This document shows positions 7,783 through 38,600 of a stretch of DNA of 50,056 nt, in pieces. Position 1 is the stretch's first letter; each line of letters opens with the position of its first letter. The stretch is from the NCBI GenBank assembly GCA_919902495.1, contig CAKKRC010000015.1, positions 1-50,056 of the forward strand, given 5' to 3'. The notes beneath the pieces were generated by a model. It ran no database searches, was not told the origin of the DNA, and saw only the letters and a program-made list of their open reading frames with translations. The translations under genes were made by a program, and so were the position numbers. This DNA is from Nitrospiria bacterium. GTDB lineage: Bacteria; Nitrospirota; UBA9217.

Positions 7783-7891
7783 ACCGCAGAGGTCGCAGAG
7801 GTCGCAGAGATCGCGGAGTAAGGAACTCCATGGATCAACATTCTGAGGAAGCGGAGATCTGCTCTGCGTTCTCAGCGTTCTCTGCGGTAAA
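7783..7891. repeat. intercistronic hairpin between atpC and atpF, GCAGAG word family
   Basis: The left arm ACCGCAGAGGTCGCAGAGGT and onward (7783-7818) holds the word CGCAGAG three times; the right arm (7862-7891, ending TCTGCGGTAAAA) is its reverse complement. Loop about 43 nt. The hairpin begins about 10 nt after the atpC stop and ends 9 nt before the atpF start. Confidence 0.82.
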
Positions 7892-12721: not shown

Positions 12722-12820
12722 GATAATATCAAATTGTAAATATCAAAATGAGTGGAGACTGAAATCCTGATTGTGACATTCAACTTGCAATTTACAATTT
12801 GAAATTTGCACTTTGCAATG
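12722..12820. repeat. AT-rich inverted repeat before atpD
   Basis: Left arm AATATCAAATTGTAAATATC (from 12725) and right arm ACTTGCAATTTACAATTTGA (from 12782) are imperfect reverse complements built from CAAATTGTAAAT/TTTGCAA words. It is AT-rich, in contrast to the genes on both sides, and ends 13 bp before the atpD start. Confidence 0.72.
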
Positions 12821-13481: not shown

Positions 13482-13561
13482 GAAGGTGAGAAGCGTTCAG
13501 GTTCCTGGCCTGACCCCTGACCCCTGACCCCTGACCCCTGACCCCTGACCCTTCTCTTCAC
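13466..13561. repeat. repeat cluster after atpD with TGACCCC heptamer tandem array
   Basis: GAAGGTGAGAGGTTGAGAAG (from 13466) overlaps the end of atpD. A run of six TGACCCC heptamers follows (13511-13552, the last truncated). The closing segment CTTCTCTTCACCTAC is the reverse complement of the opening words, so the array sits in the loop of a hairpin. It separates convergent genes and may serve as their terminator. Confidence 0.8.
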
Positions 13562-17373: not shown

Positions 17374-18633
17374 TCACTTGTCGATCTGGTCGGCCACCTT
17401 CCGCAAGTCGGTCTGACGGAACGCCTCATAGGTGGTCCAGAGATCGAGGTTGCCCTTCTTGTCCCCGCTGGGCCTTCCCTCCTTCCATGTTTTTTCGAGC
17501 GCACGGATCCGGCTGACGACGATGATCTGCGGCACGCTGCGGGGCAGCTGCGGATCGAAGAAGTTCGGGTTCCTGCCGACGAGCGGCACGCACTTTGGGG
17601 TGCCCATCGCCACCAGACCGCTCTTGGTCATGTCGTTTCGGTCCTCGAGGAGGCAGGCTGGTGAGCTGCGATCGGCAGGAGACATGGCCGCCAGCTGCTC
17701 CCCGGCGGCTTTCACGCCGGCGATCACGCCTGCGAGGGGAGAGACTTTCGGGTCGCGGGACGCCCCGCGCTTCAGGACGGAGAGCGCATCGGCCTCATCG
17801 CGCTCCCAGTACCTCCGCTCGTGTTCGACCGCCGACGCGCCTTTGGACGCCATCTTGTCGATCGCCGCCTTGTATTTCGCCTGGCGGGCGGCGTATGCGT
17901 CGGGAGCGACAAAGGCCTCATACTTTTTCTGCTGATCAGCGATGTAGCTCTCCGCGTTGGCGGCGTCCGGCCGGCGTTTGGCGATGAAGGCCTTGAGGTA
18001 GCGCTCGCGGGAGATCGGCGTCCAGACGGGCCGTCCATTCTTCGTGATGATCAGCATGTCGCCGTAGGTCGGGAACCCGCCGATGTCGGCCGTGCGGACC
18101 AGCTCCTCGAAAAACGCCCCCTCATCGTCGCTGAGCATGTTGACACCGCCGCCTTTGGGGAGCAAATTCACATTGAATATGATGTGTACGGTCTCGTCGC
18201 CAATGTACCGCTCGCGCTGCTCCTGGCCGCCTGTCGTCCGGACCACCTCAACGTGCTCGAAGCTGCCCATCATGATGGAGCCTGCGATGGGATGGTTCTT
18301 CAGCTTCTTCGCGGAGGAAGGATAGACCGACACACCGTAGAGCGAGCCTGTGAGCGAGGGATCGACTCCCATCGGCGGATTCCAGACAGGCGATTTCCGG
18401 AAGATGTCAGCGATCCGCTGGAGCCGCGTCTTGAATGCGTCGGCGTCGGACGGGGTGAAGCCGAGGAGCTTGAGATCGCTTGCCGAGTGGCCGCCGCAGC
18501 TCCACGGCCGCCACGTGCCCGGCTCGTTCGACAGCGTTCGTGTCGTTGCTTTCTGCGCGCCCAGGGACGGCGCCGCGGTCAGCAGTATCACTGAAAAGAT
18601 AGTCAAAAACAGCCGGGTGAGGTGCAGCGTCAT
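17374..18633 (-). CDS. exported protein of unknown function (about 420 residues)
   Basis: I do not recognise this protein. A signal peptide of about 26 residues (MTLHLTRLFLTIFSVILLTA, then APSLGAQ) leads to a mature part with a Trp/Gly-rich start (GTWRPWSCGGHSASDLKLLGF), a block with conserved-looking loops (IFNVNLLPKGGGVNMLSDD) and a helical middle (residues about 230-310) rich in Lys, Ala and Asp. Cysteines are few. The start at 18633 has CAGGAGAAACCC upstream; an earlier ATG at 18675 lacks one. Confidence 0.65.
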   Translation of the reverse strand: MTLHLTRLFLTIFSVILLTAAPSLGAQKATTRTLSNEPGTWRPWSCGGHSASDLKLLGFTPSDADAFKTRLQRIADIFRKSPVWNPPMGVDPSLTGSLYGVSVYPSSAKKLKNHPIAGSIMMGSFEHVEVVRTTGGQEQRERYIGDETVHIIFNVNLLPKGGGVNMLSDDEGAFFEELVRTADIGGFPTYGDMLIITKNGRPVWTPISRERYLKAFIAKRRPDAANAESYIADQQKKYEAFVAPDAYAARQAKYKAAIDKMASKGASAVEHERRYWERDEADALSVLKRGASRDPKVSPLAGVIAGVKAAGEQLAAMSPADRSSPACLLEDRNDMTKSGLVAMGTPKCVPLVGRNPNFFDPQLPRSVPQIIVVSRIRALEKTWKEGRPSGDKKGNLDLWTTYEAFRQTDLRKVADQIDK

Positions 18634-18696
18634 GGGTTTCTCCTGGGGGAAAATAATAGTTTCACGTCTATCCATAGCCTTACCTGACCTTCTGGC

Positions 18697-19077
18697 TCAG
18701 TTCGGGATCCACTGGCCTTTCATATTGGTGCATTGTTTTTCGGCTTCCGCTGCAACGCCACCTTTTGGTTTGATGCCGAATCCCGGAAAACTGGTGTAGT
18801 AACGATAGTAGGATTCGTTATTTTTCCCTTTGAACATGACGCAAGAACCCACCCGCTTCTCGGTCGGGCAGGCGCCTCTGAGGAACGTCATCTTCTGTTT
18901 TTCACAGGACCTCTCCACATTTGCTGCTTTGTAGGAGGACCCGGTAAATTCGTTGCAAAACCCGCTGGCGGTGTTATTGCAGCTCCCCGCGATCACGGAG
19001 CTGGCACATTCGGCAACGTTTGAGCTTGAGAGTGATAGTACGGCCACCAATACGGATACATAATATAATTTTTGCAT
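18697..19077 (-). CDS. small cysteine-rich exported protein
   Basis: The 126-residue protein has a signal peptide (residues 1-25) and eight cysteines in the mature part (SCNNTASGFCNEF, SCEKQKM, GACPTEKRVGSCVMF, KQCTNMKG), spaced so that several disulfides are likely after export. It ends KGQWIPN. I know no family for it. AGGAGAG lies 9 bp before the ATG at 19077. Confidence 0.6.
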   Translation of the reverse strand: MQKLYYVSVLVAVLSLSSSNVAECASSVIAGSCNNTASGFCNEFTGSSYKAANVERSCEKQKMTFLRGACPTEKRVGSCVMFKGKNNESYYRYYTSFPGFGIKPKGGVAAEAEKQCTNMKGQWIPN

Positions 19078-19105
19078 ACAGAAACTCTCCTATAGGTTTG
19101 CTGTT

Positions 19106-19543
19106 CTACTCATCTTTGTTCAAAATGATATCAACCATGGTCTTTCGCGGCTGGCGGAACAGTTTCTTGACGCGGCGGCGGAATTCTTCCGAGGTTACAT
19201 GCTCTTCGTGCGTACCGATCACGATCCTGATCTTGGGAAACGTTTCTTCGAGCGCAGCTTTGTATTTTTCCTTGAACGGGCAGAGCGCCTTCACGCAATA
19301 AGCGAAATGTATCGTATCAACGCCAAAATCGGTCAACGCGCGGATCCTTCCGATCAGCTTGTCCGGGCCGGTAAGCGTTGGGCAGCCGGGGCAATTTATG
19401 ATGCCGGCCAGGGTGAGCTTCTCATTCTCAGGATATTCGGCGAACGTCCCTTTTCGCTTTCGAAAGTCAGCGAGGCAGCTCACCGATGAGCAGCCAAGGT
19501 CCTGGGTGGCGTTGGAGCATGTCAAAATACCGATCTTTGCCAT
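19106..19543 (-). CDS. CGGC domain protein (putative metal-binding)
   Basis: This 145-residue protein matches the CGGC domain family: an early segment CSNATQDLGCSSVSCLADF, a middle NCPGCPTLTGPDKLIGRI (the CxxC of the name is present as CPGC) and a later HFAYCVKALCPFKEKY. The spacing of conserved cysteines suggests binding of zinc or another soft metal. Function is not established. AAAGGAGC precedes the ATG at 19543. Confidence 0.75.
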   Translation of the reverse strand: MAKIGILTCSNATQDLGCSSVSCLADFRKRKGTFAEYPENEKLTLAGIINCPGCPTLTGPDKLIGRIRALTDFGVDTIHFAYCVKALCPFKEKYKAALEETFPKIRIVIGTHEEHVTSEEFRRRVKKLFRQPRKTMVDIILNKDE

Positions 19544-19582
19544 ATGCGGTGCTCCTTTCGCGGAGGAGAGGGGGGCGCGAAG

Positions 19583-19942
19583 CTAACCGGCCGCCTGCTT
19601 CTTGGCGGCCCGTGTTGCGCGCTTGGTCAGACGAGCGGTGGGAACGAGCTTGATCTCCAGACGACAGCCGACCGCCCGCGCATACTTCTTGAGCGTAGTC
19701 AGAGACGGTGCATGCTTACCCGCAGCTTCCAAACGTGACACTGCACTTTTTGTCGTCCCCATTAACTCAGCAACGGCTTCCTGAGTGAGGCCGAACTTTG
19801 AACGAGCGGCAAGCATCTCACGGGTAAGCCGATACTCTTCTTCCAGATCCTCGTATGCTTTCCTGAACCCTTTCCGTTTAGATGCTTTTTTGAGGAAAGC
19901 TTCATGGTCATGGGAAACGGGTTTATATTTTAAATCAGCCAT
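19583..19942 (-). CDS. HigA/XRE-family antitoxin
   Basis: The 119-residue protein has an XRE-type helix-turn-helix in its middle: FGLTQEAVAELMGTTKSAVSRLEAAGK (about residues 49-75) and then SLTTLKKYARAVGCRLEI. Antitoxins of the HigA type in HigBA pairs have this layout with a C-terminal tail. It overlaps the toxin gene by 8 bp and is probably translated with it. Toxin-first order is the HigBA order. It would repress the pair's own promoter through the HTH. It ends in a Lys/Arg-rich tail. Confidence 0.82.
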   Translation of the reverse strand: MADLKYKPVSHDHEAFLKKASKRKGFRKAYEDLEEEYRLTREMLAARSKFGLTQEAVAELMGTTKSAVSRLEAAGKHAPSLTTLKKYARAVGCRLEIKLVPTARLTKRATRAAKKQAAG

Positions 19943-20261
19943 TTCGCACCTCCTTCATTCTTTTCCGGGCAAGGCGTAGTTCTTTTTCAGGGGTTTCTTG
20001 TGTCTTCTTTACAAATGCATGAAGCATCACAATATGTTGACCAACAACGAAGCAGTATAATGCACGACCAATGCCTTCACGGCCGCGTGGCCGCAATTCA
20101 AAAAGACCATCGCCCATGGCGCGGGAATGCGGCATCCGCAGATTCGGCCCAAACTCCATTAGAAGTACTACTAACCGGGCATAATCAGCCAATATACCGT
20201 CGGGCCAGCTTTCGATGTCGTTTTTGACACGGACATGGAAGTACTCGACGGTATATTTCAT
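19935..20261 (-). CDS. RelE/HigB-like toxin (Gp49-like)
   Basis: This 108-residue protein has the RelE/HigB fold pattern: ILADYARLVVLLMEFGPNLRM, then DGLFELRPRG and a beta strand pair GRALYCFVVGQHIVMLHAFVKK, ending in KELRLARKRMKEV. LFELR and HAFVKK are the family signature. RelE/HigB toxins cut mRNA on the ribosome. Its start at 20261 has no Shine-Dalgarno sequence and sits 7 bp after a -10 box (20269-20274), so the message is probably leaderless. The frame is open to 20537, but that part is repeat sequence. Confidence 0.82.
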   Translation of the reverse strand: MKYTVEYFHVRVKNDIESWPDGILADYARLVVLLMEFGPNLRMPHSRAMGDGLFELRPRGREGIGRALYCFVVGQHIVMLHAFVKKTQETPEKELRLARKRMKEVRNG

Positions 20262-20268
20262 GTTCGGT

Positions 20269-20297
20269 ATGTTAGCAAATATGATAACCGCTGTCAA
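20269..20297 (-). promoter_or_regulatory. promoter of the toxin-antitoxin pair
   Basis: On the minus strand TTGACA (20297-20292), a 17-bp spacer and TAACAT (20274-20269) precede the toxin ATG by 7 bp. The whole unit is a good sigma70 promoter with almost no untranslated leader. Confidence 0.65.
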
Positions 20298-20423
20298 GTA
20301 TTCTGATATGAGGTGGGCTGGAGCGATCGGTCGGCGTAAAGGATGTTTTTGTTGACGATCAGCGATGAGTCGCTTATCGTGAATCCCTGATGGGGGCCAG
20401 CTGACCCGCCGGGGGGAAGGGAG

Positions 20424-20869
20424 AACGAGTCTGTAGAATAAGTACCTTTTCAAGCCCCAACGCACCAGGCGTCGTCTAGCGCGATTAAACTTCTGCGATG
20501 TCGCTCGATGATAGCTATGTGAGGGAAAGCCCGTCATTCGCCCTCATAAGCATCGCTGCCCTCATTCCTATTATCATCAGTGGAATTTCATTGTTGTCCT
20601 GACAGTGCCAAAATAGGCCTTTCAGGGGGTTTTCCTACAGCCTCAACGAGTCTGTAGAATAAGTACCTTTTCAAGCCCCAACGCACCAGGCGTCGTCTAG
20701 CGCGATTAAACTTCTGCGATGTCGCTCGATGATAGCTATGTGAGGGAAAGCCCGTCATTCGCCCTCATAAGCATCGCTGCCCTCATTCCTATTATCATCA
20801 GTGGAATTTCATTGTTGTCCTGACAGTGCCAAAATAGGCCTTTCAGGGGGTTTTCCTACAGCCTCAACG
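20424..20869. repeat. exact 221-bp tandem duplication (possible geneless integron cassettes)
   Basis: Bases 20424-20648 are repeated without a single mismatch at 20645-20869, giving two head-to-tail copies of a 221-bp unit sharing the four bases AACG at the joint. On the minus strand each copy begins at a G/TTGAGG boundary, the cut point of integron core sites; the right end abuts the attC at 20862-20920. Neither copy has a convincing gene; a 56-residue open frame runs across the joint but its composition is not convincing. No complete attC could be drawn inside a copy, although CCTCAC and GTTGAGG lie about 105 bp apart. Nothing else is seen between 20298 and 20423. Confidence 0.9.
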
Positions 20870-20920
20870 CCGACGTGAGGGGCGCGATCTTCAGCGACCC
20901 TCTCGACGTCGTTGTTGGGC
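20862..20920 (-). other. attC site (59 bp) of the integron cassette array
   Basis: On the plus strand CCTCAAC (20862-20868) and GTTGGGC (20914-20920) flank an imperfect inner palindrome: CGACGTGAGGG pairs with CCCTC-TCG-ACGTCG. Read in cassette direction (minus strand) this is R'' GCCCAAC, paired inner boxes with unpaired bases on one side, and R' GTTGAGG. R'' fits the RYYYAAC consensus; R' fits GTTRRRY except for its last base. Confidence 0.72.
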
Positions 20921-20982
20921 AGTCCTGATTCCGTTTAAGTTAATCGGTAACCAGGTAGCGGCGGCGCCCTGACAACCGCAGA

Positions 20983-21129
20983 TCAATTTGCTTTCTTCCC
21001 AAAGATATATCCTACTATCATGCCAATCAACGTTGCAGCCTGCCCTTGAAGCTTGTCCATATAAGTTAAAAGAAATATGCCCAATAGGACAAGTAATGAA
21101 AGAACAAATTGCCTTGTTGAGCGAACCAT
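20983..21129 (-). CDS. small membrane peptide (48 residues), cassette gene
   Basis: The frame MVRSTRQFVLSLLVLLGIFL and onward encodes 48 residues, ending GYIFGKKAN, with two hydrophobic stretches (residues 8-22 and about 34-44) separated by YMDKLQGQ. It would be a small inner-membrane protein. A perfect AGGAGGG lies 4-10 bp upstream of the ATG. A core site, GTTAAAC, lies on the minus strand at 21146-21140, where a cassette start is expected, and the attC at 20862-20920 follows the gene. I do not know the family. The ribosome binding site and start codon sit in a hairpin arm (21128-21162). Confidence 0.62.
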   Translation of the reverse strand: MVRSTRQFVLSLLVLLGIFLLTYMDKLQGQAATLIGMIVGYIFGKKAN

Positions 21130-21162
21130 AGTCCCTCCTGTTTAACTTAATGAAGGGACTAT
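21128..21162 (-). promoter_or_regulatory. hairpin covering the ribosome binding site and start of the small peptide gene
   Basis: ATAGTCCCT (21128-21136) and AGGGACTAT (21154-21162) are perfect 9-bp complements enclosing 17 nt. In the minus-strand transcript the 3' arm holds part of the Shine-Dalgarno AGGAGGG and the first bases of the ATG, so folding would block initiation. Confidence 0.6.
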
Positions 21163-21226
21163 AATCTAAGTTTATTCAAATGTATCGAAACATAACGAGA
21201 AGAGATAAACAAAATAAGGTAATTCA

Positions 21227-22192
21227 CTATTTTGCGGTCTTCAAATATTTCTTATAGCCTCCATTAATAAGTGCAAGCGCATTTTTGTAATAGTTTTCGA
21301 TGCTTCTGATATCTACAATCAAGTTTTGCGAGGTCAAATCTTCGGTTTGAGTAAGTTTATCGATCTCACCAGCTATCTCTGTAAACGTTAGTCCACGTGC
21401 TTTCAAGTCATAAACAATTAAATAAAATTTCCATTTATCAGTTCTCACACGTCCTCTATTAGGCCTAAGCAATTCTTTTAGCTTTGGTATCAAGGATTTT
21501 TCTACGTCACTGATGTTAGCTGTTCTTGAGACGCCGAGAAAAATAGTGTCCTCGGGTCGTTTCTTAGAAATGTAGAGCAATTCCAATGGTGACGAATAAG
21601 CACGGCCAAACACAGGATGAGAATCAGTTTCACGTTTTAGCTGCTCAAACGTAAAGCACCTAACTAGTTCTCCAGATATTGGGGGATACAAGCTTTTCTT
21701 AAAGTCACAGTATCTTATTTCCGGACGCGGAAGTCCTCTTGCAAATACATTCATCTTTTCTAATTTTGCAAGTCTCTCGACTTCGTCCTGCGAAAGTTTT
21801 GCCTTTGGCACACGAAAACAAAAAGGCCGAATCATAAAGCAGTAATGCTTAAATAAGAATCTATTTATGTTTTTAAGGCCTGGATCGGATGTCATAAAAG
21901 CTTCATCTCCAACCCCTAATTCCTCCTCAACTTGCTCCATAAACCCATAAATCAAGTTGAGTTCCTTTTTGTACTTGGCGTGATCGTTGCGAGTGGCATT
22001 GTTGTTGGATAGCACTTTAACAATGGTAGCGTTTGTAAAGAAGCTATCAATTTTCTTTTCAAACTCATTGAATTTAGTTCTGTAGGCTGCTGACCTCCTA
22101 ACAAATTCCCATATCCAACCCTCAAAGGGCATACTATCCATATAAGCATAAGATTTCTTATTTAGTAGCGTACCCGATCTCTTTTTTGCCAT
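21227..22192 (-). CDS. cassette-encoded protein with WEFVRRS motif, unknown function
   Basis: The 321-residue protein has an N-terminal segment WIWEFVRRSAAYRTKFNEF, resembling the W-EF-RR-YR motif of DUF6499/DUF2285-type proteins (often called transcriptional regulators in phage and plasmid regions), then a long region without a recognised domain, and a C-terminal half with LRPNRGRVRTDKWKFYLIV followed by a helix-turn-helix-like stretch (ARGLTFTEIAGEIDKL). No membrane helix is evident. The gene is clearly more AT-rich than the host genes around it, as expected of a captured cassette. It is preceded by the core site R' GTTAGAC at 22228-22222. The start has only a weak ribosome-binding sequence. 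Confidence 0.6.
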   Translation of the reverse strand: MAKKRSGTLLNKKSYAYMDSMPFEGWIWEFVRRSAAYRTKFNEFEKKIDSFFTNATIVKVLSNNNATRNDHAKYKKELNLIYGFMEQVEEELGVGDEAFMTSDPGLKNINRFLFKHYCFMIRPFCFRVPKAKLSQDEVERLAKLEKMNVFARGLPRPEIRYCDFKKSLYPPISGELVRCFTFEQLKRETDSHPVFGRAYSSPLELLYISKKRPEDTIFLGVSRTANISDVEKSLIPKLKELLRPNRGRVRTDKWKFYLIVYDLKARGLTFTEIAGEIDKLTQTEDLTSQNLIVDIRSIENYYKNALALINGGYKKYLKTAK

Positions 22193-22221
22193 ATGTTTGC
22201 AGTTTTCCTATTTTCCTTCTG

Positions 22222-22280
22222 GTCTAACGCGGCGCTGACGCGCCGACCTTGGCGCGTCGCCGTCGAGCGCCAGGTTAATT
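22222..22280 (-). other. attC site (59 bp)
   Basis: Plus strand GTCTAAC (22222-22228) and GTTAATT (22274-22280) bracket a palindrome in which GGCGCTGAC pairs with GTC-G-AGCGCC (one extrahelical G) and GCGCC pairs with GGCGC inside. In cassette direction R'' is AATTAAC and R' is GTTAGAC, a perfect GTTRRRY. R'' is the exact complement of the first seven bases (GTTAATT) of the cassette to which this attC belongs. Confidence 0.85.
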
Positions 22281-22290
22281 CTTTTCTGCT

Positions 22291-23418
22291 TCAGTGCCAA
22301 CCCATCTTCTTCTCGTATTCCTGGATAAGCTCGACGTTCTTCTTTTCTGTTTCGTTAAGGTCGGTTTCTTTGAAATCAGGTTTCGGTTTATACCATGGGG
22401 ACTTTTCAAATATCTGCTTCATCTCAGGCGTTGTAAAAACCCTTCCATGGCGGGCATAGATTTCATTACGGAGGGCTTTAATGCAAAGACGAGGCATGGG
22501 GTCTTTATCGCTAAAACGATCTTCATACCAATGTTCCAATTCATCAGTTCTGTAATTTCTGCGATTGCCTTCATACCGAGTCTTATTTTTAAAATATCCA
22601 GCGCAGCGATACATAGCGTCCGGAATCGGAGGCGGTTCATCTCTACTTGTAACTACGATACCCCCACCTTCAAAGAATCCCTGACCTTCATCAGCTGAAG
22701 TACTGTCAGCATCTTTGAGAAAAGTAACCACGCCGAGATTTTCTTTTGGTTTCCAGTTCTGAAAGTGCCACTCGATTCGGTTACCCTTCCGCATGTAGCC
22801 CGATGGATATGCTCGCAAAGCTGTACCTGGGTGCTTCAAGTAGTCCATCGTGCTTTCACTCAGAATTAGTGAAAAATCCGCTTTTCCGATCGTTCCGCTC
22901 CATAAGGCCCCGGTTTCTACAACATAAATAAAGTAGGATGTTGATCGATCAAGTGAAAAGCCCCAAGTGCCAAGGTATTCAACTTTGACGTTTTTCTTCT
23001 CATGAGGTTGAAAAGAGATATCCCAGGCATTCATATGGAGAATGTAGCCACTCCGTTCATGCTGTAATACAATCTCTCCTTTCCCGCCCATTGGCCGCTT
23101 CTCGATATTTACGACCTTATCCTGTACCCAAGCTTTGAAGCTCTTTGGAGCTGAGGAGAAATAGGGGAACCCCATTTTCATGCTAATTGGCTGATCGGTA
23201 AGATTTTCGAACAGAAAGGTCGCATTAACCTTAACATCTTCTGTAATACCTTTCGTGTTTGCGGGAACCATCACTACTTCTTCTGATACCATCCGAATCT
23301 TATTATTTTGAACGGGAATGACGGTATTACCGTCTGTTGAAGAAACCTCGACTCCATCAGCCCAAACAGTGGCAGTAATAAAGAAGAGCAAAGCGATGAC
23401 GGTGGCGATTTTATTCAT
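22291..23418 (-). CDS. exported protein with C-terminal YARHG domain, cassette gene
   Basis: The 375-residue protein starts with a signal peptide (residues 1-20, MNKIATVIALLFFITATVWA). The middle resembles the DUF4424 family (NNKIRMVSEEVVMVPA followed by ATFLFENLTDQPISMKMGFPYF). The C-terminus has the YARHG motif: LCIKALRNEIYARHGRVF, then PWYKPKPDF and a final helix. YARHG domains are extracellular and found in many cell-surface proteins of unknown role. The stop is 11 bp before the attC at 22280. In the transcript it is preceded by GAAAGGGACT, a good ribosome binding site. AT-rich compared with host genes. Confidence 0.72.
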   Translation of the reverse strand: MNKIATVIALLFFITATVWADGVEVSSTDGNTVIPVQNNKIRMVSEEVVMVPANTKGITEDVKVNATFLFENLTDQPISMKMGFPYFSSAPKSFKAWVQDKVVNIEKRPMGGKGEIVLQHERSGYILHMNAWDISFQPHEKKNVKVEYLGTWGFSLDRSTSYFIYVVETGALWSGTIGKADFSLILSESTMDYLKHPGTALRAYPSGYMRKGNRIEWHFQNWKPKENLGVVTFLKDADSTSADEGQGFFEGGGIVVTSRDEPPPIPDAMYRCAGYFKNKTRYEGNRRNYRTDELEHWYEDRFSDKDPMPRLCIKALRNEIYARHGRVFTTPEMKQIFEKSPWYKPKPDFKETDLNETEKKNVELIQEYEKKMGWH

Positions 23419-23430
23419 AGTCCCTTTCAG

Positions 23431-23488
23431 AATTAACGCGAAGATGAGCGGCGGGCGAAGCCCGACCGTCTCGATCTTCTGGTTGGAT
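23431..23488 (-). other. attC site (58 bp)
   Basis: Plus strand AATTAAC (23431-23437) and GTTGGAT (23482-23488) flank GAAGATGAG pairing with CTC-G-ATCTTC, then CGG/CCG and GGGC/GCCC toward the loop. In cassette direction R'' is ATCCAAC and R' is GTTAATT. The unpaired G on one side is the extrahelical base typical of attC. The stop codon of the upstream cassette gene overlaps it by one base. Confidence 0.85.
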
Positions 23489-23949
23489 CATATCTTTGGA
23501 TTAGCATACTTTAGGAGGGAGTACAGATGGTTAAGAATCACATCTCGTCTTTCTGTTTTATCATCTTGATTATTGAAATGCTCGGGCCATTGTCGATACT
23601 TTTCCCAAGCAGCATCGAAGCTAGCACGAGCGGACGCGTCAATAAAGGGTTCAAATCTGATTTTGGCTTTTTCATGATCACGTTCAATCGTCTCGGTATG
23701 AATTTCTCTCATATTGAACCATCCAGCATCGGCATCAGTCATGCTCTTGGTATGACGAAGGGTATAGATATAGTCAACAAAGGCGGTGCGAAAGTCAGCA
23801 GCGGCTTTGTTGAATTCGGTGATTCGGATGGCCTCAATGCTGCGGGAAATAGCGAGACGATGTTCAAAAAGTGTTCGTGCAAAATAGACAACTATTCCAC
23901 CAAAGAATGTACCGGAAAAGAAAATAATGTAATTGATAAGTTCGTCCAT
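23488..23949 (-). CDS. first cassette gene: membrane-anchored protein of unknown function
   Basis: This 153-residue protein has one N-terminal membrane helix (NYIIFFSGTFFGGIVVYFA, residues about 6-24) and a charged helical C-terminal part (residues 30-150). It is of the small, orphan kind usually found in integron cassettes. No catalytic motif is visible. It is the cassette nearest to the integrase, and its stop abuts the attC at 23488. A weak GGGGAAA precedes the ATG at 23949. Confidence 0.58.
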   Translation of the reverse strand: MDELINYIIFFSGTFFGGIVVYFARTLFEHRLAISRSIEAIRITEFNKAAADFRTAFVDYIYTLRHTKSMTDADAGWFNMREIHTETIERDHEKAKIRFEPFIDASARASFDAAWEKYRQWPEHFNNQDDKTERRDVILNHLYSLLKYANPKI

Positions 23950-24346
23950 AGTGGTTATTTCCCCATATGTACTTTTATGATTGGAGTAGTCGCAACAGCT
24001 ATGTACTTTGCGTTTGAATTTCGCAGTCGATTTTGAGGCCTGCTCAGCGGCGTAAGTCCGTCTGGAGCGTACGGTTGGAAAATTCCAACCAGTGATTATC
24101 TATCCGTCTCCGGCTAGTAAAACACAAAATTCTGTTCTTTACCAGCCTGCAAAAATAATGCTCGACTTCTGTGGTGCGAGATCAGTTCGTAGTACTTCAA
24201 CCGTACAATATCATCCGTTCAAATAACAGTAGCATAGATGGCTGTAATGGGTCAATCGATTTGCTGATCAATGGGAGAAATGCAACTGTATGCTCTGAAA
24301 GGCTGGTACAAGGCTGAATTTGGCAGGATCGAAGGGTGCCTGGTAC
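23950..24346. other. leader region between integrase and first cassette; attI candidate
   Basis: No gene is visible here. A palindrome, GTTGGAA-AA-TTCCAAC, lies at 24074-24089; TTCCAAC reads GTTGGAA in cassette direction, and the first cassette's R'' is ATCCAAC, six of seven complementary. Left of it (24035-24070) GCTCAG-CGG pairs with CCG-T-CT-G-GAGC, an attC-like stem. Together they may mark the attI recombination site or a worn attC. A cassette promoter on the minus strand is expected; the best I see is TTGACC (24255-24250) with an 18-bp spacer to TACTGT (24231-24226), which is weak. Confidence 0.4.
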
Positions 24347-24375
24347 TTGACAGGTGAACGAACGTTCACTATAAT
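24347..24375 (+). promoter_or_regulatory. intI promoter with LexA-type operator
   Basis: A perfect consensus promoter: TTGACA (24347-24352), 17-bp spacer, TATAAT (24370-24375). The spacer contains the palindrome GTGAACGAACGTTCAC (24354-24369), whose core GAAC-N4-GTTC at 24356-24367 fits the Bacillus-type SOS box GAACRNRYGTTY. A repressor bound there would cover both promoter boxes. Transcription starts near 24382, about 57 nt before the ATG. Confidence 0.75.
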
Positions 24376-24438
24376 TAAAACGAATCGTCAGTGTGGTAAA
24401 TATATGCCGCGTCTAATGGGCCATTGAGGGATGCTAAT

Positions 24439-25875
24439 ATGAAAAACATACATCCGGATATTCTCTCGCGTTTTGATAACATCTTGAAATTGCGGAAGCT
24501 TCCCTTTCTTTTGCATTCCGACTATCGGAAATGGCTGCGGTATTTCCTGGATTTTCAGTCCAAATGTTCGCAGCCCGGTGAACGGTCGGTTCAGGTCCGG
24601 CTGTTCTCTGAAAAACTCCGATCAAAGGGACAGACTGAAGCGCAGGTGAGGCAGGCGGCAGATGCCGTCTCTCTTTTTTTTACTTCCCAGCAGAAGGCAC
24701 CGGTCGCTCATTCATCGACACGATCGGGCGCTGTTCCGGATACTGTCGTGCAAGGTGTCGCAGAACAGCCGTGCACGCGGGTCCCCGATCTGCCGCCCGC
24801 GGTGAAGGAGTCCGGCATGATATGCGAGCCACCCGGACCGCCGGTTCCCGATGGTCACAGCTGGCGGCGCAAAGGACGGTTTGATGATTGGCGCTGTCTG
24901 AGAAAAACAGATCATCCTGCATGGGACGCTATCATTGCCTCGCTTGCCGATGAGATAAAGACCAGGCATTACTCCAGAAAAACGCTTCAGCATTATGCGA
25001 ACTGGACGAGAAAATACCAGAGCTATTTATTGCATAAGGATCCGTCCAGCCTCTCTCCGCGGGACGTCAAGAATTATCTCACCTATCTCGCCGTAAATTG
25101 CAAAGTATCCTCGTCGACGCAGAATCTGGCTTTCAATGCCCTGTTATTCCTGTACAGGCATGTTCTCAAAAAAGATTTCGGCGATCATAAGGATATTCCC
25201 CGCGCGAAGAGATCCACCTATGTCCCGGTGGTGCTCTCGCGCGAAGAAGTCCAGGAGATTCTTGCCAGGCTGGGACAGCCGTATCATCTTATCGCCAAGC
25301 TGCAGTACGGCTGCGGCTTGCGTTGCTTTGAAGCGGTGAAGGTGCGCGTGAAAGATTTCAATTTTGATGCGGGTCTGCTTACGATCAAGGGAAAAGGCGG
25401 CAAGAGCCGGGTAGTGCCCATACCGAACAAGATGATGCCGGAATTGCTCGCTCAAATGACGTTCGTGAAAAAGCTGCATGCCGACGATCTGGCTTCCGGA
25501 TATGCCGGCGTGTTTCTCGAAGACCAATTGGAAAAGAAATATCCTAACGCTGTAAGAGAGTTCCAATGGCAATGGTTCTTCCCGCAGGCATCATTGACAG
25601 TCGCTGCGATCTCCGGAGAGAAGCGGCGGTACCACGTGCATGACTCGCGTTTTCAGGATGCGATGTATCTCGCTGTGAGAAAAGCCCAGCTCACCAAGCG
25701 CGTAACAACTCACACGTTCCGCCATTCCTTTGCCACCCATCTCCTGCAGGCGAACTATGATATCCGCACGATCCAGACGCTTCTCGGCCACGCCGACGTC
25801 AGGACGACGATGATCTACACTCACTGCGTGCCGAGCAAGACACTCAAAGAAATCAGAAGCCCCCTCGATTTCTGA
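24439..25875 (+). CDS. intI: integron integrase IntI with an extra N-terminal domain
   Basis: The 478-residue tyrosine recombinase holds the catalytic Arg in YGCGLRCFEAVKVRVKDF, Lys in KGKGGKSRVVPIP, HTFRHSFATHLL, LLGHADV and the nucleophile Tyr in TTMIYTH. The extra helix found only in integron integrases is present: EDQLEKKYPNAVREFQWQW followed by HVHDSRFQDAM, and it ends RSPLDF as IntI proteins do. Typical IntI is about 320-340 residues; here about 140 extra N-terminal residues form what looks like a second core-binding domain (about 5-78), followed by a Pro-rich linker, before the usual one (about 150-240). ATG at 24439 was chosen over TTG at 24424 because GAGGG lies about 9 bp upstream. 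Confidence 0.93.
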   Translation: MKNIHPDILSRFDNILKLRKLPFLLHSDYRKWLRYFLDFQSKCSQPGERSVQVRLFSEKLRSKGQTEAQVRQAADAVSLFFTSQQKAPVAHSSTRSGAVPDTVVQGVAEQPCTRVPDLPPAVKESGMICEPPGPPVPDGHSWRRKGRFDDWRCLRKTDHPAWDAIIASLADEIKTRHYSRKTLQHYANWTRKYQSYLLHKDPSSLSPRDVKNYLTYLAVNCKVSSSTQNLAFNALLFLYRHVLKKDFGDHKDIPRAKRSTYVPVVLSREEVQEILARLGQPYHLIAKLQYGCGLRCFEAVKVRVKDFNFDAGLLTIKGKGGKSRVVPIPNKMMPELLAQMTFVKKLHADDLASGYAGVFLEDQLEKKYPNAVREFQWQWFFPQASLTVAAISGEKRRYHVHDSRFQDAMYLAVRKAQLTKRVTTHTFRHSFATHLLQANYDIRTIQTLLGHADVRTTMIYTHCVPSKTLKEIRSPLDF

Positions 25876-25909
25876 CGCAAATTCTGTTTATCCTTCGCCG
25901 CGTTAATGT

Positions 25910-25915
25910 TATAAT
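25910..25915 (+). promoter_or_regulatory. -10 box of a probably leaderless EndoQ message
   Basis: TATAAT at 25910-25915 lies 7 bp before the ATG at 25923, with no Shine-Dalgarno sequence between; the transcript would start within one or two bases of the ATG. The -35 region (GTTTAT, 18-bp spacer) is poor. Confidence 0.45.
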
Positions 25916-25922
25916 TGTCTCC

Positions 25923-27194
25923 ATGCGTTTCCTCGCCGACCTCCACATCCATTCCCGCTACTCCCGCGCAACGAGCAAGGACATGTCCCCGGAAGGCATC
26001 GGGAAGTGGGCGCAGCTCAAGGGCATCAGGGTCATCGGCACGGGCGACTTCACCCATCCCCAGTGGTTCCAGGAACTGGGGGACAAGCTTGAGCCGACCG
26101 GGAACGGGTTGTTCACGCTGAAGAAGGAATTCCCTGCTACCGATGTTCCTGAGTCCTGCAAGGCCGAGGTTTCCTTTCTCCTAACCGCAGAGATAAGCTG
26201 TATCTACAGCAAGGGCGGCAGGACGCGGAAGGTCCATGCCCTCGTGCTGGCGCCTGATTTCGAAACGGTCAGCCGCATCAGCGCGTCACTTGCGAAGATC
26301 GGCAATCTTTCCTCCGACGGCAGGCCGATCCTGGGGCTTGACGCGAAAGCGCTCCTCCGGATCGTGCTGGACGCGTCGCCGGACGCCCTGTTCATCCCGG
26401 CCCACGCGTGGACCCCGCATTTCTCCGTGTTCGGCTCGGCCTCGGGTTTCGATTCGCTGGAGGAATGCTTCGAGGAGCTGACGCCGCACGTCCACGCCAT
26501 CGAGACCGGCCTCTCGTCGGACCCGCCCATGAACTGGAGGCTTTCGGCCCTCGACGGGATCACGCTCATTTCCAATTCCGACGCCCACTCGCCGTCGAAG
26601 ATCGGGCGCGAGGCAACGATCTTCGATACGGAGATCGCCTACGCTTCCATGCGGGATGCCATCAGAACACGAAAAGGATTTCTCGGGACCGTCGAGTTCT
26701 TCCCCGAAGAGGGGAAGTATCATTTCGACGGCCATAAGGCCTGCGGCGTCAGTCTCTCGCCGGCCGAGACGCGGCGGCACAACGAGACCTGCCCGCTCTG
26801 CCTTAAAAAAGTGACCGTCGGCGTGATGAACCGCGTCGAGAAGCTTGCCGACCGGGAAGAAGGGTACCGTCCGGATCACGCCCCGCTCTTTCATTCCCTC
26901 ATCCCCCTCCAGGAGATCATTGCGGAAACACTGAAGGTGGGAGCAAGCAGTAAAAAAGTTGCCAGGGCCTATCTGGCGCTCCTGGAACAGCTGGGGAACG
27001 AGCACACCATCCTCATGGATTCCCCGCTCGATGCTATCGAAGCCGCCGGATCGCCCTTGCTTCGCGAGGCTGTCGCCCGCATGCGTGCCGGGAATGTCCG
27101 TATCATCCCCGGGTACGACGGCGAGTACGGGAAGGTCAGGACCTTTGTGGATTCGGAAAAGAACGAGGCGAAATGGCAGATGCAGCTGCTGTGA
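25923..27194 (+). CDS. endonuclease Q family protein (PHP domain DNA repair nuclease)
   Basis: The 423-residue protein starts MRFLADLHIHSRYSRAT, the first PHP metal-binding motif (HxH at 8 and 10), and continues with GTGDFTHPQW, PAHAWTPHFSVFG and LISNSDAHSP, which carry further metal ligands. A zinc-binding module follows with KACGVSLSP and RRHNETCPLC, and then a helical C-terminus. This layout and length match endonuclease Q (long listed as TIGR00375), which nicks DNA 5' to uracil, hypoxanthine, xanthine or abasic sites and is found in Thermococcales, some methanogens and scattered bacteria. It starts 47 bp after intI on the same strand but has its own -10 box. Confidence 0.85.
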   Translation: MRFLADLHIHSRYSRATSKDMSPEGIGKWAQLKGIRVIGTGDFTHPQWFQELGDKLEPTGNGLFTLKKEFPATDVPESCKAEVSFLLTAEISCIYSKGGRTRKVHALVLAPDFETVSRISASLAKIGNLSSDGRPILGLDAKALLRIVLDASPDALFIPAHAWTPHFSVFGSASGFDSLEECFEELTPHVHAIETGLSSDPPMNWRLSALDGITLISNSDAHSPSKIGREATIFDTEIAYASMRDAIRTRKGFLGTVEFFPEEGKYHFDGHKACGVSLSPAETRRHNETCPLCLKKVTVGVMNRVEKLADREEGYRPDHAPLFHSLIPLQEIIAETLKVGASSKKVARAYLALLEQLGNEHTILMDSPLDAIEAAGSPLLREAVARMRAGNVRIIPGYDGEYGKVRTFVDSEKNEAKWQMQLL

Positions 27195-31921: not shown

Positions 31922-34900
31922 CTAAACCGTGACCGTCAGTGCTAACTTCTTGCTGTCCACGAACAACAGGTATCCTTCCACGGCCTCAAGCCGGAACATC
32001 TCCTTGACCGCTTCGCAGTAGATCCTGACCTGGGGACGATAGTGGTCCATCTGTGACTGCAGCGCCTCGTCGTTCTCGATGGTTTTGGTCTTGTAGTCGA
32101 CCACGTACCCCCGTCCGTCCTTGACGACCACGCGGTCGATGATGCCGCTCACGATCTCGTTCCCTTTCCGGTACAGGAAGGGGAGCTCGGAGTATGCCGC
32201 CGGCTGACGGTGGAATATCCATGCCAGCTCGTCGCTCTCCGTGACCGAGCGGATCACCATACCCACACCGGCAAGGAACCGGCCCCGTTCTTCTTCGCTC
32301 AGCGCCCGGACCTCGGGGAACTCGCCCGCGACGGCCGCGGGATCACAGCTTTTCGTTGTGGCGTATTCTTCAAGGCACCGGTGGAAGATACTGCCGCGGA
32401 CGTGCGGAGCAACAGGACCGCTTTCCGGGGCAGATGCCTGCTCAAGAGACCATTCCTTTTCCTGGATAAGGTCGATCGCTTTCTTCCACTCTGGTGACTG
32501 TGGGGCGGCGATGGCGGAGATGTTCGCAAGGACCTTGTCCGCGTCGATCCTTTGCGTCCTCTTCTGTTCCGGAAGGCGTGACCGTGCATCGAAAGCTTCG
32601 ATCGGCAGCACGCGCGCCTGCCATTCCGGGCAGGCATACTCGATGAGCCGTGATCGCGGTTCACTCACGATCTCGGGTGCGGGTAGCGCCTGGTGAAGCC
32701 AGGACAGCCAGGAGTTCTGCCTGACGGGCTTGTTCCCGGTCTCAAGGGTCCCGAACATGACGAGGTGGTCCCGTGCCCGCGTCATGGCCACATACAGGAG
32801 CCGCTGGTGTTCGCGGCGGAGCTCTTCCTGCTCCCGCTCCCACAGCTCGTCGTAGAGCGTGCTTTCCTTGTCCTTCACCGCCATGCGCACGACGCCGTCG
32901 CGGTCCTCGACGATCGCCAGCGGTCCGGCGGTGACGGACCGGGGCTGCTGATTCATGCCCGGAAGAAACACGACGGCGAACTCCAGTCCTTTTGCCTTGT
33001 GCACGGTCATGATGCTCACCGCGCCGCGTGATCCGGGCAGGTTCATGTCCGCGGCGGCCTCGCGCTGGTCGGAATCGCGGATGTTCTTCACCCACTCCAC
33101 GAGGTCCTGCAGCGTGGTGTATCCCCTGCGGTCGAACTCGCGCGCCGTGTCGAGCAGCTTGTCCAGGTTGAAGATCGCCTGGGGGTTCCGCTTCCCGAAC
33201 CGTATATAGGCGCCGGTGTCCCCGATGATGCGGTGGACCAGCCCGGCAAGCGGCTCCGTCAATGCATACCGCGACCAGCGGTCCAGCAGGTCTCCGGCGG
33301 AGGGATGGTCGCGCCGGATGTTGTTCATCATGTCCCCGTCCATGCAGGTCTTCAGGATGTCCTGGTCGGTGAGCCCGAAGAGGGGGGAACGGAGGCTGGC
33401 CGCAAGGGAGAACCGGTCGTCCCTGTTCCACAGGAAGAAGAGCACGTTCAGCACCGCCTGGACCTCGTCCTCCTCGTAAAAGCCGATGCCGCCCACCACG
33501 CGGAACGGGACGTCTTCCGCCTGGAGCGCCGCTTCGTACTCCTTGAGCTTTGTCCGGCTCTGGATGAGGATCGCGCAGTCATTGTATCCGGCAGCACGCT
33601 GCACCCAGCTACGCGACTTGCTCCCGCCCTCGCGTATCTCCTGTCCGGGCAGGGACCGTTCATAGACGGACGTCCCGCTCTCGATCAGCATTCTGATCTC
33701 TCTTGCCAGAACATCCGCTTCCGTCGCGCCGCCGCCGGCATCTTCCCTCGCTCTATCCGTCAAGAGCTCAACGAGCCGCACGCTGCCCGCGCTGTCCTTC
33801 CGGTCCGGCGCGGAAGGCTGATACTCCCCGCTCCAGAGCGTACCGAAGACCTTGTTGACCGTATCGACGATCTCGGGCGCGGAACGGTAGTTCTTATCAA
33901 GCGTCCGGATGTCCCGCAATGCCTCCGGGAGCTGTTCCATCTTCTCGCGGATGCTGTCGATGAGACGGTAGTTCGCCTCGCGGAACCGGTAGATGGACTG
34001 TTTCTTGTCGCCCACAACGAACAGGGTAGGCTCCAGGGGCTTGTCCGCTCCCTGGCCGGAGAAGATCTCCTCGGTCAGCCGGTCAAGGACCGCCCACTGG
34101 ATGTCGCTGGTGTCCTGGAACTCGTCCACCAGGAAGTGGAGGATCTTCCGGTCGAGCCAGTAGAGGATGTCCGGCGTTTCCGGGGACCGCAGGAGGCGGT
34201 AGGCATAGATCTCGAGGTCGTCGAAGTCCAGAAGGCCTTCGCGGAGCTTCGCGGTCTGATAGCGCTCCTCTGCCCGCTGGAACAGCTTGAGCAGGCTCTG
34301 CGCTTCCCGGCCGGCCCGGATCCGTGCGTGGAGGTCGCGGAACCGAACCAGCAGGTCCTGGACCGCAAAGTACGCTTCTTCATACTGCTTCCGTTCCGTT
34401 CCGCTGAAATATTTTTTAGCGATATATGGTTTCTTCGCCGGGCTGCCGTCCTTGTTGAAATAGACCGGGGCAAGGTCCCTGATGATCGCTGACGCGGCAG
34501 CTGTTGTTCGCGCATCTGCAAGGAAAAGGTGCGCCCCGCCCCGGCACGCTTCGTAATGGGCGCCCTGCGTCTTAAGGATGGACCCCATCGTTCGCAGAAC
34601 GGCGCGCCATCCGGCGCTCGTGATGAAGCTGTCCAGATCGTTCTCGGCGTGCCCGGTCCCCATGCCGGAACTGACGGCGCGCAGCAGTTTTTCCGGTCCG
34701 CCCGCGTCGATCTCCCTGCGCTTGAGCCTGCTCCTGATCTTGAGCAGGAATCCGAGGGTGTCGATCAGGTCGTCTGCCGAGAGATCGCCCAGCGGGGCCA
34801 TGATCCCGGCGTCGCGGTCCAGCTCCTCAAGGGTCTCCTCGATGGCCTGCTGTGTCTTGTACGTCTGGTCCCGCTCGTCAAGGATGCCGAAGTCCGGTGG

Positions 34901-35227
34901 AAGGCCTGCTTCGAGCGGGTAGCGCTTCAGGAGGTTCATGCAGAAGGAGTGGATGGTCGAGATGCGGAGGTCCTGCCGGCCCCGGATGATCTTCTTGAGC
35001 ATGGGCTCGGGCAGGCCCTCCATCACCCGCTTCTTGATCTCCGCCGCCGCTTTGTCCGTGAAGGTGATGGCCACGGCCTGGTCGATGTTGAGGTCATTTT
35101 GGTCAAGCAGGTCCAGGAGCGCGAGATAGCGGTCCTTCAGCGCGCGCGTCTTGCCGGACCCGGCCGATGCCGAGAGGTGGATGGAACGGGAGGTGTCGGG
35201 GGTCTTATCGGGGCGATTAATATTCAT
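31922..35227 (-). CDS. addA: AddA-like UvrD-family helicase-nuclease
   Basis: The 1101-residue protein has the SF1 helicase motifs in order: Walker A SASAGSGKT (residues 19-27), QxVAITFTDKAA, Walker B HFLVDEFQDTSD, VVGDKKQSIYRFREA, YRSAPEIVDT, TVHKAKGLEF and TRARDHLVMFG. The C-terminal PD-(D/E)xK nuclease is seen as IIDRVVVKDGRGYVVDYKTK. It fits AddA (length about 1100-1250), which processes double-strand breaks with AddB before RecA loading. The AddB-like gene lies immediately upstream, but a decayed transposase now separates the two (35240-35612). Confidence 0.9.
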   Translation of the reverse strand: MNINRPDKTPDTSRSIHLSASAGSGKTRALKDRYLALLDLLDQNDLNIDQAVAITFTDKAAAEIKKRVMEGLPEPMLKKIIRGRQDLRISTIHSFCMNLLKRYPLEAGLPPDFGILDERDQTYKTQQAIEETLEELDRDAGIMAPLGDLSADDLIDTLGFLLKIRSRLKRREIDAGGPEKLLRAVSSGMGTGHAENDLDSFITSAGWRAVLRTMGSILKTQGAHYEACRGGAHLFLADARTTAAASAIIRDLAPVYFNKDGSPAKKPYIAKKYFSGTERKQYEEAYFAVQDLLVRFRDLHARIRAGREAQSLLKLFQRAEERYQTAKLREGLLDFDDLEIYAYRLLRSPETPDILYWLDRKILHFLVDEFQDTSDIQWAVLDRLTEEIFSGQGADKPLEPTLFVVGDKKQSIYRFREANYRLIDSIREKMEQLPEALRDIRTLDKNYRSAPEIVDTVNKVFGTLWSGEYQPSAPDRKDSAGSVRLVELLTDRAREDAGGGATEADVLAREIRMLIESGTSVYERSLPGQEIREGGSKSRSWVQRAAGYNDCAILIQSRTKLKEYEAALQAEDVPFRVVGGIGFYEEDEVQAVLNVLFFLWNRDDRFSLAASLRSPLFGLTDQDILKTCMDGDMMNNIRRDHPSAGDLLDRWSRYALTEPLAGLVHRIIGDTGAYIRFGKRNPQAIFNLDKLLDTAREFDRRGYTTLQDLVEWVKNIRDSDQREAAADMNLPGSRGAVSIMTVHKAKGLEFAVVFLPGMNQQPRSVTAGPLAIVEDRDGVVRMAVKDKESTLYDELWEREQEELRREHQRLLYVAMTRARDHLVMFGTLETGNKPVRQNSWLSWLHQALPAPEIVSEPRSRLIEYACPEWQARVLPIEAFDARSRLPEQKRTQRIDADKVLANISAIAAPQSPEWKKAIDLIQEKEWSLEQASAPESGPVAPHVRGSIFHRCLEEYATTKSCDPAAVAGEFPEVRALSEEERGRFLAGVGMVIRSVTESDELAWIFHRQPAAYSELPFLYRKGNEIVSGIIDRVVVKDGRGYVVDYKTKTIENDEALQSQMDHYRPQVRIYCEAVKEMFRLEAVEGYLLFVDSKKLALTVTV

Positions 35228-35599: not shown

Positions 35600-35618
35600 G
35601 CGGGGCCGCCCCTACGAA
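35484..35618. repeat. REP-like palindrome cluster (GGGCCGCCCCTACG family)
   Basis: Five or so GGGCGGCC/GGCCGCCC palindromic units lie here, for example GGGCGGCCACATAGGGCCGC and GGGCCGCCCCTACGA. The cluster directly borders the RAYT remnant and runs to the stop of addB, as REP arrays often do beside their transposase. Confidence 0.8.
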
Positions 35619-38600
35619 TCCTCTTTTCCGCACATCATCCCGTTCGGGCAATTCCGGCACTTGTTCTGGTCCCGCGGTGTGGACGGGAAGTTGCCGGCTC
35701 GGATCCCTTCGATCGCCCTACGGGCGCTGTCCATGCTCATGGCCAGGAGCGCCTCAAAATCGGCCGCGCTCTTCGGGCTTGCCTTCGGTTTCGTCGAAGG
35801 CTGGTCCCCCAGGGCTTCTTTATCATAGAGGACCAGGTCCCGTGTGGCTCCCTTGTTCTTCCCGGACAGGTCGTAGTAGGCAAGGCCGACGGTCCGCTTG
35901 AGGCCGGGGTCCTTGTCCGCCAGGGTCCGCAGGGCCATGACCGCGTAGACCGGGAGCTGGAAGATCTCCTGTTCGAGCGTCATCACGGGAAGGGGATAGC
36001 CGCCGGTCTTGTAGTCCACGATGATGAAATTGCCATGCTCGTCCACGTCGATGCGGTCGATCTTTCCATGCAGTTCGACCCCGGTGCCGTCGGCCAGCGT
36101 GAGCGTGAAGGACTCGATCTTCTGCTCCAGGTAGGCCGGCCGGAAGCCCTGTTTCCAGAACTCCTCCTCGGCGTCGAGGAACCGCTCCGCCATGACCGTG
36201 ACGAACAGGTCCTTTTCCCGGCGGTTGCGGAAGGTGTCGGCCTCATAGCTGAACTCCCGATCGGCGAGGCCGGCGAGGAGCTCGTTGGCCTTGTCCCGGT
36301 CCCCCGCGGTCACCGGCCCGTTCCATTCTGCGTAGAACCGCCGGAGGATCGAATGCACCTTGCTTCCCCGGTCGAGGGCAGAGATGTCCTCGGACACTTC
36401 CTCCAGCGGGGATATCCTGAGCAGGTGCTTCACATAGTACGCGTAGGGACACTTGAGATAGTCGTCCAGTTCGGTGACGGAATATTCCTTCCTTTCCCGG
36501 GTTGCCAGTGACCCCGGCGTTGCTGCCGGCTGGTAGTCAAGGCCGCGTGCTATCCCCGCCATGCCTTCGCGATCGCCGGCCAGCACCTTTTCCAGACCGG
36601 TGATGTCTCCCGCGAGGGACAAAGATTTCGCCAGCTCCGGAATGCTCCGGCTATCCTCGACCGTGAGGCTGAACTGGACGTTCCGTGTTTCTTTCATCAC
36701 GCCTGCCCTGAGGAGCGGGGTGAGCTCCGCGAGGAACGGTGACGGCACGATGGGCTTGTCGCCCACGTTCTCCGGCCAGGTGAGCGTGACGCGGGGCGCC
36801 GAGAGCAGGAGGCGGTAGAAATGGCTGGCAGCGTTCAGCCGGGCGTTCTCCAGCGTGCGCACGCCCAGGGCCTCGAGGGTGGCCTCGGGCAGAAAGATGT
36901 TCTGGGGCAGGCGCCGGGGGAACGCTCCGTCCATGAGCCCGCCGAGATAGATCTCCGTCCAGGCGTGGCCGATGCTTTCTTCCATGCCCAGGACCTGGAC
37001 GCCGCCCTCGTCGTCCTGCGGGACCTGATAGCGGGTATGCATGAAGGTCTTCTTGAGCAGGAACAGCCATTCGTTGAACGTATAGGAATATTCAGGGAAG
37101 AGGTCGCCTGCCTGGCGGAGGGACGCGAGCGTCTCGGTCAGTTTCTTGTAGGCCTGGAGGTTGCTGTTGAGGGGTCCCTTGATGAGCGTCACCCGCCCGC
37201 TGAGGCCCGACCAGGTCAGGAGGGAGGACAGGCGGTCCATCCACGAGGTGAGCGGTGCCGGGTCCCGCGTGGAAAAAGGGTCCAAGGCCAGGAACAGGTC
37301 CTTGATCGAGCCCGTGAGAATATCATGTCCTTCCGCTTCCGGCGAAGCGCGCTTGAGCGCCATAAGCAGTTTGTGCCTGCCTCCGGTGATGCGGCGGTCC
37401 GCCATCAAGCGGGCAAGTGCCGGAGCGAGGGAAGGGGCCTCGCCGAACTTCAGGAAGGGCGAGCTGAAGATGCGGAGCAGCGAGGGCCCGGAATGATCCT
37501 CGCGGCAGGAGGACAGGAGCGAGACCACGGCGGTGGTCACCGGCGAGGCGCTGAGCTGACGGCCGAGGGCGCGATTGTAAGGGATGCCGAAGTCGGTGAA
37601 CAGCTCCTCAGCGAGCGGGCCGTATTCATCGAGCGATGGAAATGCCACGAGGATGGAGTCGGGGGGCCTTCCGGCCAGGAGCGACCGCTTCACCTCGCCC
37701 GCGATGAACGACACCTCCTCGCGCATGGTGATCGCCGAGAGCAGGCGGAGGTCCTTCCGGAAGTCAGGCGGCGCTTTCTTTGCCGCCTCGTCGAAGGACC
37801 TGGCCGAGAACAGCGCTTCGGCGAGGTAGCGATCGTCCGTTCCTGCCGGCACGGACGATCCCCCGACCATGAGGCCGACGCGGGCCATGAACTCCTTCAA
37901 GAGCCTCAGCGGGTGGTAGTCACCGGCGTTCCGGATGCTGTCGGGCGAGGGGGCGTCCACCAGGAACGTGCAGTCATGGTGTGCCGCGATCTTGCGCAGG
38001 ACCCGGACCTGGAGCTCGGACGCGTCGTGCAGTCCGTCGATGATGATGGTCGAGTAGGAAGTAAGCCAGGAGGGATCGAACCGGTCGGCGAGATGGGAGA
38101 GCATACCCGCGGGATCGGCAAGCCCCCGGGTGGACAGGATCCGCTCATACGTTTCATAGGCCTCCATGAGCAACCGCACCTGCGGTTTGTCGGAGACGTC
38201 GGACATCGCTACGGCTCCCGCCAGGTGCTCCGGCGAGATGCCCGACGCGGACAGCTCCTCGATCATACCGGCCACCGCGGCGGAAAGCGACGGGGCCAGG
38301 ATGTCCGGCGTGTTCCCGAACGCCTTCTTCCCGGTGATGCACGACTTCACGATTCCTTCGAGCAGGACGAGCCGTCCGTTCTCGTCGATGAGCGCGGGGC
38401 CTCCGGTCTTCTCGGAGAGCCGCTGCAGGAAGAGAGGGAGGGTCTGGACCTCGGGCTGCACCAGGGCATGGCTGCGACGGGTCCGCTCCATGATGTCCAG
38501 AAAAAGCCTGCCGTAGGTCCTGCGGAGGCGTGAAGAGGGGACGATGAGCAAAACATCGTTATACAGGAACGGGGGGCCTGCCTTTTTGGAGAACAGCTCC

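Follow-up and report, generated by a model that had tools for sequence, protein, structure and literature searches.

A tandem pair of MITEs at an integron attC site in a Nitrospiria bacterium, probably from an attC-targeting IS1182-family group

The analysis covered a 50,056-nt window, that is, the whole stretch of contig CAKKRC010000015.1 studied here, which includes an integron array of a Nitrospiria bacterium. The integrase gene intI was located on the plus strand at 24424–25875 and matched TIGR02249 (2e-109) as well as PF00589 and PF13495. Read from its first TTG, this ORF carries ~170 residues ahead of the integrase domain, which begins at about residue 171, and the true start is probably downstream of that TTG. 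On the minus strand, two intact attC sites were found at 23435–23484 (ATCCAAC...GTTAATT) and 22226–22276 (AATTAAC...GTTAGAC), both between intI and a third attC at 20866–20920 (20866–20916 in a shorter delimitation), which belongs to a cassette ORF at 21227–22192 and carries the repeat described below. The third site has the R'' box GCCCAAC and a hairpin z-score of -4.0. Just past the repeat, domain matches identified a toxin-antitoxin module (19583–20262, minus strand) with a Gp49/HigB-like toxin, an HTH_3 antitoxin and a promoter-like site of its own at 20297–20269. No Rfam family was matched within 18500–26000.

The toxin-antitoxin segment (19560–20303) has an 87% identical paralogue elsewhere in the genome, at G000:C68:6512-7233, and a homologue in a congener. 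As the upstream DNA of these homologues differs, the relatives yielded no true empty site for this cassette pair. Insertion-free examples of the third attC type were nevertheless seen at several places in the relatives, and further matches to it occur in the bacterium's own genome.

Between the third attC and the toxin-antitoxin module, Tandem Repeats Finder reported a perfect head-to-tail repeat at 20424–20869 (period 221, 2.0 copies, 100% match), comprising two identical 221-bp units and four additional bases. Such a repeat is far beyond chance, and the exact duplication proposed in a preliminary description of this DNA was thus borne out. A search of the 3.67-Mb, 110-contig assembly confined the unit to these two tandem places, and no copy was found away from a core site. 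The G/TTGAGG start assigned earlier to each unit proved to be right on the minus strand, where the units read TTGAGGCTG...CAGACTCG between GTT cores.

Judged from its sequence, each unit is a 218-bp MITE with inverted ends plus a 3-bp target duplication. The two copies occupy 20427–20644 and 20648–20865 on the minus strand and are identical, with the inverted ends GAGTCTGTAGAATAAG / GAGGCTGTAGGAAAAC that are also found in the homologues of family relatives; aligned, they read GAGGCTGTAGGAAAA against GAGTCTGTAGAATAA. The triplet AAC, which is GTT on the minus strand, is present at all three junctions of the pair. It forms the putative target duplication toward the next cassette at 20424–20426, a triplet that also ends the relatives and complete insertion sequences; it is common to both copies at 20645–20647, a junction pattern found in this genome alone among 395; and at 20866–20868 it is the R'-box GTT of the attC and the predicted target site. 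In the cassette direction, the minus-strand order is attC...GGC-GTT-[GAGGCTGTAGGAAAACC...GGTACTTATTCTACAGACTC]-GTT-[same]-GTT-CTCCC, so that the pair starts exactly behind the R'-box GTT of the third attC. The element is short and has terminal inverted repeats (GAGKCTGTAGRAWAA), and AAC/GTT lies on both sides of it. Both the inverted termini and the intact attC directly beside the pair escaped the earlier reading.

The statement that the copies hold no clear gene withstood closer analysis. No ORF in the unit exceeds 56 aa, except where the toxin ORF is artefactually extended at its 5' end. A coding unit was rejected, as the relatives carry stops in all frames, conserve no ORF and show no strong codon-position bias. 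Similarly, the reported lack of a complete attC within the copies agreed with the folding results: on neither strand was the fold superior to that of shuffled sequence (z -0.6 and -0.9), and the RNAalifold covariation term was unfavourable, which led to the rejection of an internal attC or a conserved fold. No plasmid matched the unit by DNA similarity, and the unit junction was not found in viral contigs.

The preliminary description had asked for single-copy versions in related strains, and selection by DNA similarity alone recovered them from four further genera of the family. Three of them are full-length, with 70–80% identity and AAC on both sides, and the fourth is truncated. A further full-length sequence (L051) was recovered from another Nitrospirae MAG by its end pattern, and one genome holds a 106-bp form with an internal deletion. 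The five full-length sequences, including that of the window, align over 224 columns with no gap. The identity among L034, L036, L071, L051 and window positions 20424–20647 is 69–81% at identical length, which is unusual for non-coding DNA.

Elements with the same ends are not restricted to these close relatives. When some 85,000 species genomes were scanned for one end, 27 loci were returned, with ~7 expected by chance according to our estimate. Most of these loci had both ends and lengths of about 100–340 bp and came, by record title, from Nitrospirota, Desulfobacterota, Methylomirabilota and others. Overall, the MITEs bounded by these ends measured 82–340 bp. A stricter end pattern gave 57 matches in 34 of the 395 genomes of the phylum, while the reversed pattern gave 0. 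The left AAC was built into the search pattern for many of the elements, but not for the DNA homologues or the loci selected by transposase. The other elements of the family have their ends in common and differ in their interiors. A second MITE group with the same ends showed lengths clustering at 158–161 bp. Two 158-bp MITEs of this same family, each flanked by GTT, lie ~1 kb apart in L147 (G157:C35:6000-12500), where they apparently occupy successive sites of one array.

The same ends were also borne by complete 1.8-kb insertion sequences of the IS1182 family, and the IS1182-family elements with these ends include L065, L155, L156, L158, L164 and others, which identifies candidate autonomous partners. 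The 1.8-kb L065 encodes an IS1182-family transposase. The best model for the transposase was NF033551 (9e-79), at 265.6 bits just under the curated cutoff of 270, and the Pfam domains DUF772 and DDE_Tnp_1_6 scored above cutoff. An alignment of 11 proteins contained four invariant Asp residues. Together, these results place the transposases of the partners in the IS1182 type. The transposase-based search recovered complete or partial insertion sequences in 17 of the 395 genomes. Among elements chosen by protein and not by flank, we counted 24 perfect ends, of which 22 had GTT or AAC next to them, and all of the transposase genes had one orientation relative to GTT, reading away from the attC side. 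Relatives on Pseudoalteromonas plasmids showed ~41% transposase identity, and one of their sites was not clearly an attC. In the bacterium's own genome, which is 97% complete, no IS1182 transposase belonging to this group was detected; the transposase source is therefore absent or unbinned.

The target sites were analysed by a forced-pairing fold of the 130 bases before each insertion point, in which AAC of R'' was paired with GTT of R'. The folds of the upstream flanks were far more stable than those at random GTTs (p=8e-12), with medians of -0.133 and -0.037 kcal/mol/nt, respectively. When each flank was compared with its own dinucleotide shuffles, p<=0.05 was reached at 27 of 48 sites where 2–3 were expected, in a simple test on partly non-independent sites, and about a third of the sites gave no attC signal in the folding. 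A first, cruder attC score had been weak (14 of 49 at p<=0.05), and constrained folding was used instead. Visual inspection also showed attC in many flanks, such as TAACAAGTAAATCCAGCGG...CCGCTGATTTCAGGCGTT in L072, and in the family relative L179 an end of an insertion sequence of this group lies within the same attC type as that of the window. GTT adjoins nearly all elements with these ends, mostly directly behind an attC hairpin. On the far side of the window pair, GTT is followed by CTCC and not by RRRY.

Taken together, these observations point to two adjacent non-autonomous MITEs of an attC-targeting IS1182-family group, a reading to which we assign a probability of roughly 0.88. This figure concerns the identity of the repeat as MITEs in an attC, and the way in which the second copy arose is less certain. 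Membership of such a group is suggested by ends held in common with the insertion sequences, by the abutment on GTT, by the attC hairpins and by the single transposase orientation. An IS1182-type DDE transposase supplied in trans would recognise the MITE ends, would read the attC either as sequence or as a folded hairpin, and would join the element at GTT, leaving a 3-bp duplication. Hairpin reading would be plausible, as stem-loop targets have been reported for IS1272, a member of this family. After a first insertion the same attC could remain a target, since its body and its GTT are left intact and GAGG from the MITE stands where RRRY would be. A second copy entering this attC, for example from the sister chromosome, would then produce a head-to-tail pair with one GTT in common. 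We consider this second insertion at a still-intact attC the simplest route to the tandem and favour it slightly. No other tandem pair was observed in the 395 genomes, so that re-entry into an occupied attC is either rare or collapsed in short-read assemblies.

The tandem might also have arisen without a second transposition. The element would still be an attC-targeting MITE, but its second copy would come from replication slippage or unequal crossing-over between the flanking 4-bp AACG repeats, which we regard as a possible but less probable history. AACG at both unit ends would yield exactly the observed product, and the identity of the copies, their being the sole ones in the genome, the missing group transposase and the lack of tandems among the other genomes are all compatible with it. 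However, 4 bp is a very short homology for a 221-bp duplication, and targeted re-insertion predicts the same product, given the apparent activity of the family.

The assembly itself is an unlikely origin of the repeat. A single real MITE copy could have been duplicated in the contig, or a free circular MITE incorporated into it, and both the draft state of the assembly (110 contigs) and the exact identity of the copies would fit such an error. Yet, with no further copy of the unit in the genome, there is nothing to force a break or misjoin at this place; the join shares exactly one AAC; and a k-mer assembler can write the junction only if it is present in the reads.

IntI requires an attC on the cassette. 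That the integron integrase inserted a geneless cassette two times, or duplicated one, is strongly disfavoured and very improbable: the boundaries of the unit do lie at G/TT core points in an array with an integrase gene, but the unit has no attC hairpin at its 3' end or elsewhere, its terminal inverted repeats match those of complete IS1182-family elements, GTT flanks each copy, and family elements with the same ends differ in interior. Of the double insertion at core-site boundaries suggested in the preliminary description, the integron setting stands, with a real array, a TIGR02249 integrase and three attC sites, while the cassette identity does not. An integrase is likewise not required for the duplication, as the supposed core-site boundary can be read as a transposon target plus its target duplication.

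To our knowledge, the attC-targeting elements described so far are IS1111-type elements and group IIC introns. Group IIC-attC introns are retroelements that target attC and lack inverted repeats and target duplication; like the MITEs they are mobile and directed to attC, whereas the window unit is 218 bp long and has no reverse transcriptase. The IS1111-attC group comprises insertion sequences entering integron attC sites (Tetu and Holmes 2008; Post and Hall 2009, as cited in PMC12444791), and IS1111 elements have subterminal repeats, encode a DEDD transposase and make use of a guide RNA (PMC11187229). The present elements resemble this group in their specificity for integron attC sites but differ in having a DDE transposase of IS1182 type, repeats that are truly terminal, derivatives in the form of MITEs, and a duplication of GTT. 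Membership of the IS1111-attC group was accordingly rejected, as the partners carry DDE IS1182-type transposases and terminal rather than subterminal repeats. We regard the group as IS1182-type MITEs that act like IS1111-attC elements without belonging to that group, the machinery being unrelated. MITE-like structures are also known to flank a class 1 integron and mobilise it whole (Gillings 2009, as cited in PMC8618304); these too associate a MITE with an integron, but they flank the entire integron, whereas the window MITEs sit inside a single attC.

The group also resembles the IS1182 family, including staphylococcal IS1272: the transposase family is the same, the terminal inverted repeats are simple, and hairpin-forming targets are preferred. 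IS1272 is reported to use stem-loop targets and to replace the inverted-repeat target on insertion (PMC5678879). The window element differs in that the attC hairpin is retained, GTT flanks the element at either end and the target is a single, specific kind of site. A search of the non-subscription literature returned no description of an IS1182-with-attC or MITE-with-attC group. We propose, at about even odds, that an unreported IS1182 lineage spread across several phyla and bearing many MITEs reads the folded attC hairpin and inserts at GTT, the integrase cleavage point, in one orientation; cassette sites would then serve as landing pads for DDE transposons, with tandem stacking possible. With such a DDE group and its tiny, cargo-free versions, there would be a second and unrelated way for integron arrays to become interrupted, frozen or expanded, and attC-targeting MITEs may explain some of the 'geneless cassettes' in environmental arrays. 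An attC-dependent DDE transposase would further make it possible to test directly if transposases of this kind read DNA as folded hairpins.

Other features were observed in the window away from the integron. Short tandem arrays occur at 13509–13551 (CCTGACC x6), 12781–12819 (CAATTTG x5.6) and 7785–7818 (CGCAGAGGT x3.8). Two adjacent minus-strand genes at 31922–35227 and 35612–38662 encode a UvrD-like helicase/PD-(D/E)XK protein and an AddB-like nuclease, which probably form a recombination pair of AddAB type.
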